Part shown: piece by piece, positions 24,265 to 28,366 of the stretch
Layout of the letters: each line of letters begins with the position of its first letter
How positions within the stretch are numbered: position 1 is the first letter of the stretch
Assembly: GCA_016875735.1 (NCBI GenBank)
Contig: VGOW01000023.1
Span: 1 to 50,483, forward strand
Reading direction: 5' to 3'
Source: Chloroflexota bacterium
Lineage (GTDB): Bacteria > Chloroflexota > Anaerolineae > Anaerolineales > VGOW01
DNA: 50,483 bases
Position numbers and translations under genes: made by a program
Notes under the pieces: generated by a model
Databases searched by the model: none
Seen by the model: only the letters and a program-made list of their open reading frames with translations
Told to the model about the DNA's origin: nothing

Positions 24265-24328
24265 GAACGATGAACGCGGAACGATGAATGCGGAATGTGG
24301 TTCATCGCTCATCGTTCATCGCTCATCG
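24265..24328. repeat. Heptad repeat, opposed arrays (GAACGAT / TCATCGY type)
   Basis: Five units from 24265 (GAACGAT, GAACGCG, GAACGAT, GAATGCG, GAATGTG) are followed after one base by four units TTCATCG/CTCATCG (24301-24328). The arrays are mutually complementary. The element sits between the SDR stop and the next start codon. Confidence 0.9.
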
Positions 24329-24336
24329 TTGCTACG

Positions 24337-25278
24337 ATGCTGACGATCACCACCGACCCCCGCCTCCGCGCTCTCTCCGCCGTGCTGGCCGCCACCGATT
24401 GGCCCGACCGCGAACAGCGCCCCGTGCCGCGCGGCGTGCACCCCCAAGCGCACGCGCTCAAAAAATATGTCGCCCCCTTTCGGGATCATCCGGCAGTCGC
24501 GTTCGCGCAGGCCGCGCTCGATGCCGACCCCGACCCCGCGCCGCTCTTCGCCCGCGCGCTGAACGACGAGCCGGAACTATCGGAGCGCGTGCGGTCGTTT
24601 GCCGAAGCGGCCTCGCTGGAAACGTTTTGGGCGGAGCACGAGGCCGGTTGGGCGCAGTCGGTGGCCGAAGTGCAAAAGCATGTTGCCGCGCTCGACTTCT
24701 CCGCCTTCCTCCGCGAACTGTTCGACTCCATCCCCGACGAACTTATCATTCACCCCAACATCGCTTACCCCACCACGCACTCGTTCGGGGTGAGCGCGGC
24801 GGGCAAACTCTATTCGATCATGCCGCCGCGAAAGGCGGTGGGCGAAAGCCCGCCGTGGCCCTTCGGAGACGATCGCGATTACGCGGCGCGACTCGCGCTC
24901 CACGACTTCGTTCAAGCCCAACTCGCCGACCTGCTGGGAAGCCGCCCCGGCCTCATCCCGCCCGGGGAGCACGGTGGCGGCCTCCCCCCCGAATTCCGCG
25001 CCGAGCACCCCGCGTGGGAAGCGCAAGTGGTCGAATTATTCGCCTACGCCGCGCAGATCATTTTTCTCAACCGCATCGAAGACGGCGCGGGCGATTCGTT
25101 TGCGGTGTTCGAGCGCCGCGCGCGCAAACTTGCCATTCTGCCCGGCGTGGTGGACGAGGTGACGAACTATATTGCCGAGCGAGGCATGTCGCAGAAGTGT
25201 GGTAATATCGAAACGTATCTTCCGGTTTTTGTCGAAGAGGTGCGGAGGCTGTTGGCAAGCACAGCGGCTCAAAGGTGA
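24337..25278 (+). CDS. Conserved hypothetical protein
   Basis: 313 residues from ATG 24337. A longer frame back to 24295 passes through repeat DNA and is not credible. The protein is soluble, helix-rich and acidic, with no signal peptide. Noticeable stretches are FRDHPAVAFAQAALD, IPDELIIHPNIAYPTTHSFG and a C-half with ELFAYAAQIIFLNRIEDGAGDSF. The overall shape hints at a protease-like uncharacterised family, but no HExxH or other catalytic motif is seen and I make no functional claim. The stop lies in a small hairpin that begins the AOR leader. Confidence 0.7.
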   Translation: MLTITTDPRLRALSAVLAATDWPDREQRPVPRGVHPQAHALKKYVAPFRDHPAVAFAQAALDADPDPAPLFARALNDEPELSERVRSFAEAASLETFWAEHEAGWAQSVAEVQKHVAALDFSAFLRELFDSIPDELIIHPNIAYPTTHSFGVSAAGKLYSIMPPRKAVGESPPWPFGDDRDYAARLALHDFVQAQLADLLGSRPGLIPPGEHGGGLPPEFRAEHPAWEAQVVELFAYAAQIIFLNRIEDGAGDSFAVFERRARKLAILPGVVDEVTNYIAERGMSQKCGNIETYLPVFVEEVRRLLASTAAQR

Positions 25279-25403
25279 TGACTTTCGTCACTTTACCGGA
25301 GTGGGGGCAAACGATGATAATGGTTGAGGTTCGTTCCCGCGAACGCGAACCCTTCTCCGGTAATTCAATCAAGTTGATGAATTGGAGTATCCCTTCACTC
25401 CAA
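25275..25403 (+). promoter_or_regulatory. Structured leader upstream of AOR (candidate riboswitch)
   Basis: Three helices can be drawn. GTGATGA pairs with TCGTCAC (25275-25291, one G-U). TTACCGGAG at 25293-25301 pairs perfectly with CTCCGGTAA at 25355-25363, enclosing a smaller GGTTCG/CGAACC helix (25328-25333 with 25346-25351). TTGGAGT at 25382-25388 pairs with ACTCCAA at 25397-25403. A terminator follows, then the AOR ribosome-binding site. It does not match the Moco-RNA consensus as I remember it. Whether it is regulatory RNA or the end of the previous transcript is open. Confidence 0.5.
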
Positions 25404-25443
25404 CCACACACGGAAGCCCTGATCAAATTGAAGCAGTAAAAAG

Positions 25444-25476
25444 CGTTATGCCTAACTCGCATAACGTTTTTGTTTT
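25444..25476 (+). terminator. Intrinsic terminator or attenuator before AOR
   Basis: CGTTATG (25444-25450) pairs with CATAACG (25460-25466) around a 9-base loop. It is followed by a T-rich tract (TTTTTGTTTT, 25467-25476). It ends 38 bases before the AOR start codon, so it either terminates the upstream gene or works as a conditional attenuator for AOR. Confidence 0.8.
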
Positions 25477-25514
25477 CGCTGACCATCAACCCACTCATAC
25501 CCAAGGAGAACCCT

Positions 25515-27335
25515 ATGACAACGTTAGGCGGATATGCAAACAGATTGGCTCACATTAATTTGACCAGCCGCAGTGTGGAATACAAAGAAGTGCCCGACGA
25601 GTGGGCGCGGCTCTACATTGGCGGGCGTGGGCTCGGGGTGCGCTTCCTTTTGGAGAACGGACCCACGGTGGATCCGCTCTCGCCCGACAACATGCTGTGC
25701 TTCATGAACGGGCCGCTCACCGGCTCGGAAGCGAACATGAGCGGGCGCATGGCCGTCGTCACCAAATCGCCGCTCACCGGCACCGTCGTCGATAGCCATC
25801 ACGGCGGGTGGTCGGCGGCGCGTCTGCGCTGGGCCGGCCTCGACGGCCTGATCTTCAAAGGCAAGGCCGATAAACCCGTGTATGCCTACATTCACGATGG
25901 CAACGTGGAACTGCTCGATGCCAGCGAGGTGTGGGGCAAAGGCGTGCACGACACGGTGAAATACTTCAAGAACAAATATGGCGAGAAGGATTTGACCGTG
26001 ATTGCGATTGGGCAGGCCGGAGAGCATATGGCGAAGTTTGCCTGCTGGGTGAACGAGAACGACCGCGCCAGCGGGCGCGGCGGCACGGGCTGTGTGGGCG
26101 GCAGCAAAAACCTGAAGGCGCTGGTCATCAAAGCCGAGAAGAAGATGACCAAAGCCGCCTTCCACGACGCGTGGAAGGCCGCGCACCAGAAGGCGCTGGC
26201 GGTCATCATGGACGAGAAGAACATCACCAGCCCGCGCAAGGGCGGCCTCTCGGTCTATGGCACCAATGTGCTCATGAACATCACCAGCAACATGGGCGCC
26301 CTGCCCACCAACAACGCCCAAGTCACCTCGTTCGGCGATAAGGCCGAGCATATCAGCGGCGAGTACGTCAAGACGAACGTGCTGGTGGACGACCCCACCT
26401 GCCATGCCTGCCCGGTGGCCTGCAAGAAAGAAGTCGAGATCAAAGACGGGCCGTACAAGGGCTTGCGCATGGAGAGCGTCGAATACGAATCGGCGTGGGC
26501 GCTGGGCGCGAACTGCGGCTACGACGGCATTGACGGCGTCGCCAAGTTAATCGATCAGTGCAACGATTACGGCTTCGACACCATCGAAATGGGCAACGTG
26601 CTCTCGGTGTACATGGAAGCCACGCAGAAGGGCTACACCAACGGCGCGGGCGGCCTCAAGTGGGGCGACGGCCCGGCGATGGTCGAAACGGTCAGCAAGA
26701 TCGCTGTGCGCGAAGACGTGGGCGACATTCTGGCCGAAGGCGCCGAGCGCGCGGCCAAGAAGTTCGGCCACGCCGAAATCGCCATGACCGTCAAAGGCAT
26801 GGCCATCCCCGCCTACGACCCGCGCGGCCTCAAGGGCATGGGCATTGCCTACGCCACCAGCAACCGCGGCGCGTGCCACCTGCGCGCCTACACACCGGCC
26901 AGCGAACTCAAACTCATCCCCCTGCCCACCGACCCGCTGGCTTGGAAGGGCAAAGGCGATCTCACCAAAATTCTGCAAGACATCCACGCCTTCTCCGACA
27001 GCCTCGACCTGTGCAAGTTCAGCGCCTTTGCCGAAGGCATGGATGAATACGTCGCGCAGTATTCAGCAGTGACTGGCATCCCCTTCACCGCCGACGATGG
27101 CCTGAAGACTGGCGAACGCATCTACAACCTCGAGCGCCGTTTCAACAACCTTGCCGGGATCGGCGAGGGTAGTGATTACCTGCCCGAACGATTCCTCAAA
27201 GAACCGTCCACCATGCCCGGCTCGCAAGGCCATGTTTGCGAATTGGCCGAGATGCTCGACGAGTATTACAAGGCGCGCGGCTGGGCGAATGGCGTTGTGC
27301 CCGAAGCCAAGTTGAAAGAGTTGAACGTCGCCTGA
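25515..27335 (+). CDS. Aldehyde:ferredoxin oxidoreductase family protein (tungstopterin)
   Basis: 606 residues, normal length. It oxidises aldehydes (or reduces acids) with ferredoxin, using a tungsten bis-pterin and a [4Fe-4S] cluster. Cluster ligands are in place: CHACPVAC gives Cys296, Cys299 and Cys303, with the fourth at Cys500 in LDLCKF. This spacing is close to that of Pyrococcus AOR. GGRGLGVRFL and the glycine-rich GRGGTGCVGGSKNLK pterin-side stretch are conserved. AAGGAG at 25503-25508 selects ATG 25515 over an in-frame upstream ATG at 25470 lying in the terminator. The convergent MoaD/DUF1952-like genes support cofactor assembly for it. The exact substrate is unknown. Confidence 0.93.
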   Translation: MTTLGGYANRLAHINLTSRSVEYKEVPDEWARLYIGGRGLGVRFLLENGPTVDPLSPDNMLCFMNGPLTGSEANMSGRMAVVTKSPLTGTVVDSHHGGWSAARLRWAGLDGLIFKGKADKPVYAYIHDGNVELLDASEVWGKGVHDTVKYFKNKYGEKDLTVIAIGQAGEHMAKFACWVNENDRASGRGGTGCVGGSKNLKALVIKAEKKMTKAAFHDAWKAAHQKALAVIMDEKNITSPRKGGLSVYGTNVLMNITSNMGALPTNNAQVTSFGDKAEHISGEYVKTNVLVDDPTCHACPVACKKEVEIKDGPYKGLRMESVEYESAWALGANCGYDGIDGVAKLIDQCNDYGFDTIEMGNVLSVYMEATQKGYTNGAGGLKWGDGPAMVETVSKIAVREDVGDILAEGAERAAKKFGHAEIAMTVKGMAIPAYDPRGLKGMGIAYATSNRGACHLRAYTPASELKLIPLPTDPLAWKGKGDLTKILQDIHAFSDSLDLCKFSAFAEGMDEYVAQYSAVTGIPFTADDGLKTGERIYNLERRFNNLAGIGEGSDYLPERFLKEPSTMPGSQGHVCELAEMLDEYYKARGWANGVVPEAKLKELNVA

Positions 27336-27397: not shown

Positions 27398-27649
27398 TTA
27401 ACCGCCTCCGCGCATCAACTTGGGTTCGAGCGCGGCCATGGCCCCCGCCACCGAGTCGGCCTCCCCCTCGAACTCCAATCGCACCTGCCCCACCCGCAGT
27501 GAGCCGATCTCGAAATCTTCGATCTGAGTCAGCCGCGCCCGCCAGCCCTCGCCGTGCAGCCAGCCATCGTCTTTGCCTTCAGCGCCAATCTGCTCAATGT
27601 ATTCGCGGAACAGCCAGAGCGGGATGCCGCGAACGATACGCTCAAACAC
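27398..27649 (-). CDS. Small DUF1952-like protein, MoaD partner
   Basis: 83 residues from a GTG codon. Key stretches are RGIPLWLFREYIEQIG, GWRARLTQIEDFEIGSLRVGQVRLEFEG and a C-terminal SVAGAMAALEPKLMRGGG. It resembles the small alpha/beta domain (DUF1952/MoaD-related C-terminal domain) that in some thermophiles is attached to MoaD. Here it is a separate gene whose start overlaps the moaD-like stop by 8 bases, so it is almost certainly translated together with it. A role in pterin-cofactor assembly for AOR is inferred from position. Confidence 0.65.
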   Translation of the reverse strand: MFERIVRGIPLWLFREYIEQIGAEGKDDGWLHGEGWRARLTQIEDFEIGSLRVGQVRLEFEGEADSVAGAMAALEPKLMRGGG

Positions 27650-27926
27650 AGCCGCCGCCTACCGGTGGAAAAATGTTGATCGTGTCGCCGGGCGCTATCG
27701 GAGTATCCAGCCCGGCATCGAGGTGTTGCGCATCGCGCCCATTGACGAACACATGAACGTGCGGATACAACTGCCCGTGCTCGTCGTACAACTGCGGGTG
27801 AAGAGCGGGGTAGCGCGCAAGCAATTCGTCGATCAGTCCCTGCACCGTCACTCCGTAGTCCAATGCGACCTCGACCGTTTTGCCGCCCACAATCTGCCGC
27901 AGTGTTGCATAGAAGTTGACTTTCAT
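27642..27926 (-). CDS. MoaD/ThiS-family sulfur carrier protein
   Basis: 94 residues from ATG 27926; the longer frame to 27983 lacks support. The beta-grasp fold is seen in MKVNFYATLRQIVGGK, HVFVNGRDAQHLD and the end DTINIFPPVGGGCV. MoaD carries sulfur for molybdopterin/tungstopterin as a C-terminal Gly-Gly thiocarboxylate. Here two to three extra residues (after the GG) follow, so the protein would need trimming or use another Gly. The gene is convergent with AOR and overlaps the DUF1952-like gene. Confidence 0.85.
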   Translation of the reverse strand: MKVNFYATLRQIVGGKTVEVALDYGVTVQGLIDELLARYPALHPQLYDEHGQLYPHVHVFVNGRDAQHLDAGLDTPIAPGDTINIFPPVGGGCV

Positions 27927-27979
27927 AGGTTGCCTCTTTGTTTTTAATTCTACCTTTCGCCGACACCCTGCCGCAACGC

Positions 27980-28366
27980 TCACACCAGCCGTTTCAGTTT
28001 CTTCACCGAAGCCTGCATTTCGAGGAACAGCAGCCCCAGCGGCGCTTCTTCGCTCGCCGTCAGAGTCAGCACGGCGTCCTCGCCGATGGACACGAGCACG
28101 ATGCGCCCGCTCTCGCCCTGAATATAGACCTTGCCCAGCTCCCCGCTCCGCATGGACTCAGTGATGCGCTCGCCGAGTAACAGCATCACCGCCGACATGG
28201 CCGACACGCGTTCCTGCTCCACGTAATACGGCATCACTGCCGCCACCGTCAACCCACTCAGCCTCACCACCGCCGCCGCGCGCACGTGCGGCGACGACTT
28301 GAGCAGTCCGCGCAGAACTTGCCGAACGGCTTCGACATTAGGTTCGCGTTTGGCGCTATTGTTCAT
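27980..28366 (-). CDS. Roadblock/LC7 domain protein
   Basis: 128 residues. The roadblock fold shows in VRQVLRGLLKSSPHVRAAAVVRLSGLTVA, SAMSAVMLLLGERI and GRIVLVSIGEDAVLTLTASEEA. Bacterial roadblock proteins regulate small Ras-like GTPases (MglB-type) or sensor kinases. No GTPase gene accompanies it here. It overlaps the HAD gene by 11 bases, so the two are cotranslated. Confidence 0.85.
   Translation of the reverse strand: MNNSAKREPNVEAVRQVLRGLLKSSPHVRAAAVVRLSGLTVAAVMPYYVEQERVSAMSAVMLLLGERITESMRSGELGKVYIQGESGRIVLVSIGEDAVLTLTASEEAPLGLLFLEMQASVKKLKRLV

Follow-up and report, generated by a model that had tools for sequence, protein, structure and literature searches.

Attenuators that work through an intrinsic terminator share a simple order of elements, a promoter, a leader, a hairpin with its T-run and then the gene. 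The leader of the aldehyde ferredoxin oxidoreductase (AOR) gene described here follows the same order but differs from such attenuators in that no antiterminator, leader peptide or aptamer was found and in that the stem has a fixed sequence of a protein-site type. The closest protein-based systems are those of ModE. In the available text of PMC545781 the E. coli ModE consensus is given as ATCGNTATATA-N6-TATATANCGAT, and single-domain ModE proteins are noted in Desulfovibrio and D. psychrophila. E. coli ModE represses modABCD and activates moa (PMC11980592, in the part available), and at moa FNR, ModE and an RNA element are combined (PMC2408646, likewise in part). In the same portion of PMC11980592, TudE proteins are proposed as tungsten-sensing ModE homologs and TaoR is named as a regulator of a tungsten AOR.

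The half-site of the box found in the window agrees with the E. coli consensus (PMC545781). As at modABC in E. coli and in Geobacter sulfurreducens, inverted CGNTAT half-sites stand before oxyanion transporter genes and the ModE-like gene adjoins mod/tup genes, whereas the E. coli operator spans 24 bp (PMC545781, as far as that text is available) and the site in the window, like almost all those of its relatives, only 23 bp. Two further differences from the E. coli and Geobacter sulfurreducens systems of that source are the single-domain regulator, devoid of TOBE, and the position of the AOR site, which is part of a terminator stem about 110 nt downstream of the predicted transcript start (PMC545781). 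ModE-type control by tungsten is what the TudE proposal also holds, but TudE and TaoR are TOBE-containing or PBP-like, and the available text of PMC11980592 describes no terminator-embedded site for them. Among the open-access papers searched, none was listed that places a ModE site within a terminator or ahead of AOR in its leader.

The window, that is, the whole stretch of 50,483 nucleotides that was analysed, is contig C23 of genome G000 (4.15 Mb, 97.8% complete). Upstream of AOR and co-directional with it lies an ORF of 327 aa (24295-25278, plus strand) that ends 160 nt ahead of the terminator hairpin and matched no family in Pfam or NCBIfam. Just 3' of AOR a MoaD/SAMP1-like gene (27642-27983, minus strand) is convergent with it, a possible pterin-cofactor neighbour. 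The stretch in front of AOR appears to consist of two modules, a DNA promoter followed by an intrinsic terminator that contains a ModE-type box, with the following features:

25279-25290, no strand assigned: Crp/Fnr-like palindrome TGACTTTCGTCA, inside GTGATGACTTTCGTCAC (25275-25291), which by its look we take to be a candidate Crp/Fnr-type site; supported by TGAYN4RTCA counts in AOR upstream regions
25293-25363, plus strand: 9-bp inverted repeat ('outer helix'), arms TTACCGGAG (25293-25301) and CTCCGGTAA (25355-25363)
25316-25321, plus strand: GATAAT, the -10 box of a promoter predicted for AOR, by sequence and palindrome spacing
25382-25388 and 25397-25403, plus strand: 7-bp leader hairpin TTGGAGT/ACTCCAA
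25439-25471, plus strand: predicted intrinsic terminator hairpin, 13-bp stem and 7-nt loop, by sequence, recurrence and covariation
25444-25466, no strand assigned: candidate ModE-type operator core CGTTATG-N9-CATAACG, 23 bp, inside the terminator stem, by sequence
25467-25477, plus strand: T-rich tract of the terminator, by sequence
25503-25508, plus strand: ribosome binding site AAGGAG, by sequence, ahead of the ATG at 25515
25515-27335, plus strand: AOR gene of the AOR/WOR type (P0001), by Pfam AFOR_N and AFOR_C

The predicted terminator occupies 25439-25477, where a stable hairpin is followed by a T-run. DNA BLAST of the leader gave no match in 100 relatives and only the leader itself, in one copy, in its own genome, a single copy that ruled out a repeated element. 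As the leader DNA is not conserved, AOR orthologs were gathered through their protein sequences, from 101 relatives, from 396 genomes belonging to the class and from the GTDB collection (Anaerolineae and Chloroflexota MAGs were among the best matches of the GTDB search, which makes Anaerolineae the probable class). For 106 of these orthologs the upstream DNA was examined, over at most 600 bases. The pattern CGYTRYG-N9-CRYRRCG, with at most one mismatch, is present in 36 of the 106 leaders, against 1.1 after shuffling, and in 32 of these 36 the core lies within a hairpin that a T-run follows (the consensus hairpins). Three more leaders (L124, L140 and L141) carry hairpins with slightly different cores, which brings the total to 35/106, spread over ten families (f1, f10, f29, f30, f35, f44, f45, f55, f59 and f61). 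The CGYTATG..CATARCG span measures 23 bp in 18 leaders and 22 in one. In G006, G121, G225 and G156 the box has no arms and is placed farther upstream, ahead of a visible promoter. Of the 67 box-free leaders, five (L018, L019, L076, L083 and L127) also show a terminator no more than 200 nt from the start codon, with stems of 7-11 bp. Most hairpin leaders display, by eye, a sigma-70-like promoter typically some 100-170 nt 5' of the hairpin, so that the hairpin would be transcribed.

Covariation was measured on an alignment of 27 of the 35 hairpins that includes L132 and omits L136, L155 and L157, whose arms have bulges or mismatches, L162 (an arm mismatch), L170 (a close copy of L169) and the variant cores L124, L140 and L141. 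In this alignment 91.5% of the cells are paired, against 80.5% in shuffled sets, and 56 cells show double changes, against 18.4; none of 500 shuffles reached either value. The double changes fall in all six arm pairs and in three of the eight core pairs, and controls in which the partners were slid gave far lower values. The mean length of the contiguous arm in the 32 consensus hairpins is 4.28 bp, compared with 2.34 bp when partners are shuffled (0/2000 as high). Kinship of the sequences inflates these covariation figures; the hairpins nonetheless come from ten families. The predicted terminator is thus, on the aligned leaders, the conserved part of the AOR leader, and the attenuator-type terminator proposed by an earlier sequence-only reading of this DNA proves to be evolutionarily maintained. 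The covariation for which that reading had proposed to test AOR leaders is found in the hairpin arms, while nothing is widely conserved between promoter and hairpin. Two genus-mates, G001 and G004, possess AOR and lack the box, which counts against an operator-terminator.

A closer look at the stem core revealed the inverted CGNTAT...ATANCG half-sites of the ModE operator at 25444-25466 (CGTTAT..ATAACG). The strict core CGNTATG-N9-CATANCG occurs only twice in the whole genome, in the AOR leader and before tupA (C1:38544-38566, between the modB permease gene and tupA). The gene order there is the modE-like gene (P0002), modA-like, modB, the box, tupA, tupB and tupC. The tupA, tupB and modB products match NCBIfam models, modB alone above the cut-off, and the modA-like gene is presumably such, having been named from sequence motifs. 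The TupA-like protein of this genome (L203 3961-5007, minus strand, G000:C1) carries an N-terminal LysM domain before its binding-protein domain. Over 21 genomes the strict core gave 22 sites in 14 genomes (reversed pattern, 7), and 19 of the 22 stand before AOR or tupA. A looser pattern, CGYTRYG..CRYARCG, is not over-represented in the genome (three sites against four reversed-pattern controls); that count proves nothing alone, and the case therefore rests on the stricter core and on the positions of the sites. A search with a leading G did not recover the genome's own tupA site; it gave four sites before AOR (G000, G003, G050 and G060), and single sites ahead of tupA (G008) and of a MoaD-like ORF (G050), and its other matches look by eye like chance, most lying within coding sequence. 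In several genomes the tupA box is placed directly 3' of a TATAAT-like hexamer, where a repressor site would be expected.

The tupA boxes used for comparison are 17 of the 30 upstream regions fetched. No box-like site was found in the available bases, some of them short, before tupA in G345, G226, G208, G340, G130, G243, G254, G364, G129, G389 and G409, and G282 (a far site, at -398) and G219 (a variant in a short upstream) also stand outside the set. The 17 boxes have arms of 1.35 bp, mostly without a T-run, and a mean hairpin energy of -9.7 kcal/mol against -20.6 kcal/mol for the AOR hairpins; a C-A mismatch at core position 3 is present in some of them and in none of the 32 AOR hairpins. 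The AOR version thus looks like a tupA-type box around which a terminator has been built, and a box that recurs at tupA with no long arms around it suggests that a protein is the regulator. The sequence-only reading had tied the leader to tungsten/molybdenum metabolism, and this tie gains support from the box shared with tupA and from its co-occurrence with ModE-like genes.

The likely regulator acting on the box, judged by its sequence and gene position, is P0002 (132 aa). Its PDB matches are all ModE or molybdenum-binding repressor chains (1b9m, 1o7l; E about 1e-8), and it matches TIGR00637 with an E value of 1.7e-19 and 69.7 bits, under the cut-off of 98.5. HTH_1 is the only domain detected; no TOBE domain was found, which leaves oxyanion sensing by P0002 unexplained and counts against an operator-terminator. 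The AOR leader could be read in 95 genomes; box and ModE-like gene occur together in 29 of them, the box alone in nine, the ModE-like gene alone in five and neither in 52 (Fisher p 1e-11); counted by family the figures are 10/2/2/12 and p is only 0.001. In nine of the 38 box genomes no ModE-like gene was found, with a nearer query included, which counts against an operator-terminator. Most of the nine are fragmented MAGs, and several of these also miss tupA; G254, in turn, is rated complete. In G243, G208, G226 and G130 the ModE-like gene is the immediate 5' neighbour of AOR.

At the upstream end of the leader, TGAYN4RTCA palindromes occur in 22 of the 106 AOR upstream regions (3.1 in shuffled sequences), and in eight of the 106 a -10-like hexamer follows 24-25 bp 3' (0.06 shuffled), although L018, L019 and L084 among these pairs seem to have a better -10 further downstream. 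In the window the distance from palindrome to -10 box is 25 bp, a spacing that recurs in other AOR leaders, and from the placement of the -10 box we infer a transcript start at about 25328. Palindromes of the form TGAC-N4-GTCA also stand before AOR genes without a ModE-type box (the leaders noted, with or without box, are L016, L018, L019, L028, L035, L084, L135, L138 and L139). The roughly 38 nt between the T-run and the ATG contain no visible promoter, so the sequence gives no sign of an AOR start after the terminator.

We consider it reasonably probable, on the sequence comparisons above, that the leader is an 'operator-terminator' in which a ModE-like protein gates AOR transcription. The span, one base pair short of the E. 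coli value, and the modest family-level p are further points against it. RNA polymerase would start near 25328, at a promoter with a Crp/Fnr-like site, and about 110 nt on would meet the hairpin terminator, so that AOR mRNA would be made only by read-through. The core of the stem would double as a DNA operator, 23 bp long, for a ModE-like regulator of one domain that senses the intracellular tungstate/molybdate status, directly or via a partner, and whose presence on the palindrome would change the number of polymerases that pass. In the simplest form the regulator would be a roadblock just before or in the terminator, and the two together would keep AOR off; upon its departure a fixed fraction of polymerases would read through. 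The narrower proposal, that the terminator stem itself serves as operator, occupancy by the metal regulator setting read-through and one 23-bp sequence being kept both for DNA binding and for the RNA hairpin, we hold at slightly less than even weight. The computed comparisons show the box, its location in a terminator, its conservation, its presence at tupA as well and its co-occurrence with ModE-like genes; from this arrangement we infer that P0002 binds the box, that it acts as a roadblock, in which direction it controls AOR and which metal it senses. If the AOR site worked as the repressor-like placement of the tupA box suggests, AOR would be repressed when the oxyanion is plentiful. Repression of a tungsten enzyme at high oxyanion would be odd physiology, since AOR needs tungsten, and the opposite sign may apply; E. 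coli ModE both represses and activates. If the proposal is true, tupABC and AOR form a tungsten regulon with a recognisable site in the Anaerolineae-like group, in a layout where one sequence is both operator DNA and terminator RNA. A transcription factor that regulates by sitting on a terminator would become testable, and the locus would show that a riboswitch-looking leader can be a protein site.

The alternative that survives best, though unlikely, is a plain ModE-type operator acting as a roadblock in the leader, the hairpin and T-run being functionless. The promoter-proximal position of the tupA box agrees with it, and any palindrome in a leader will fold; it does not account for the covariation of the arms beyond the box, nor for a T-run after all 32 consensus AOR hairpins when this is mostly absent at tupA. 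Less likely still is an ordinary terminator with no regulator bound, which would end the transcript of the ORF at 24295-25278 or work as a constitutive attenuator. The orientation of that ORF and its end 160 nt before the hairpin would suit such a role, but ordinary terminators neither keep an 8-bp core and a 23-bp span across ten families nor share a core with tupA promoters, and the AOR promoter, where visible, precedes the hairpin. A likeness of the stem to integron attC sites, an idea formed by eye, was dropped after the tupA box turned up.

The operator-terminator was also weighed against the riboswitch of the sequence-only reading, in which an aptamer between promoter and terminator would sense Moco/Wco, tungstate or an aldehyde-linked metabolite and switch the terminator. 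The elements described there (the 9-bp repeat, the 7-bp hairpin, the terminator and AAGGAG) are all present. The 240-nt stretch folds better than 200 of 200 dinucleotide shuffles (z -4.27), and the leader from about 25328 on, with the terminator at its end, still folds better than shuffles (z -3.64). However, the outer helix has its 5' arm in the promoter, between palindrome and -10 box, and hence 5' of the predicted transcript; with this arm probably untranscribed, the main helix is unlikely to form in RNA. No counterpart of the 7-bp hairpin at 25382-25403 was found among the relatives' AOR leaders. Rfam (4227 models) gave no match at gathering thresholds in the whole window, the absence of a Moco RNA match being as that reading had stated, and a single sub-threshold, implausible match on 20 loci. 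With 14 sequences from f29 and four from f45, RNAalifold gave 0.0 and no promoter-to-hairpin structure, and no conserved aptamer was found 5' of the terminator in either family. The sets of two or three close relatives from f10, f30 and f59 give weak signals (RNAalifold z -4.4 to -6.1), which we take as shared descent and which may alternatively reflect family-specific structure. The conserved part, moreover, is a DNA-type palindrome common to tupA. Like the Moco/Tuco riboswitch, the element lies in the leader of a Mo/W gene, and some Moco/Tuco examples have an intrinsic terminator; unlike it, the AOR leader matches no Rfam model and has no conserved aptamer, its conserved palindrome being shared with tupA promoters (PMC2408646, in the part available). 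The riboswitch is accordingly very unlikely.

Leader-peptide attenuation, in which translation of a short ORF (25314-25440) would control the terminator, is close to negligible and was rejected. In the window this ORF, of 41 codons, stops exactly next to the stem, but it begins with a codon that overlaps the -10 box predicted for AOR. Of the 35 hairpin leaders only 10 have an ORF that stops close to the hairpin and is preceded by a loose match to a ribosome site, so that such an ORF is not conserved, and the encoded peptides are unrelated, bar two same-genus sequences.

Several minor observations were made beside the operator-terminator. A second ribosome-site-like GGAGGT, well 5' of the true site and 75-119 nt before the AOR start, is present in 20 of the 106 leaders (1.9 shuffled), both with and without the box hairpin (e.g. 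L004-L007, L009, L013, L017, L135, L139 and L140). In L081, L126 and L130 (G121, G225 and G156, respectively) the ModE-type box stands 5' of the AOR promoter, an activator-like or mobA-repressor position; in G225 it lies between AOR and a divergent gene which, from a sequence motif, we take to be MobA-like. Finally, the box of L101 (G050:C320:328-351), which is flanked by complementary arms of 8 bp and has no clear T-run, precedes a MoaD-like ORF, so that the hairpin form may extend beyond AOR.
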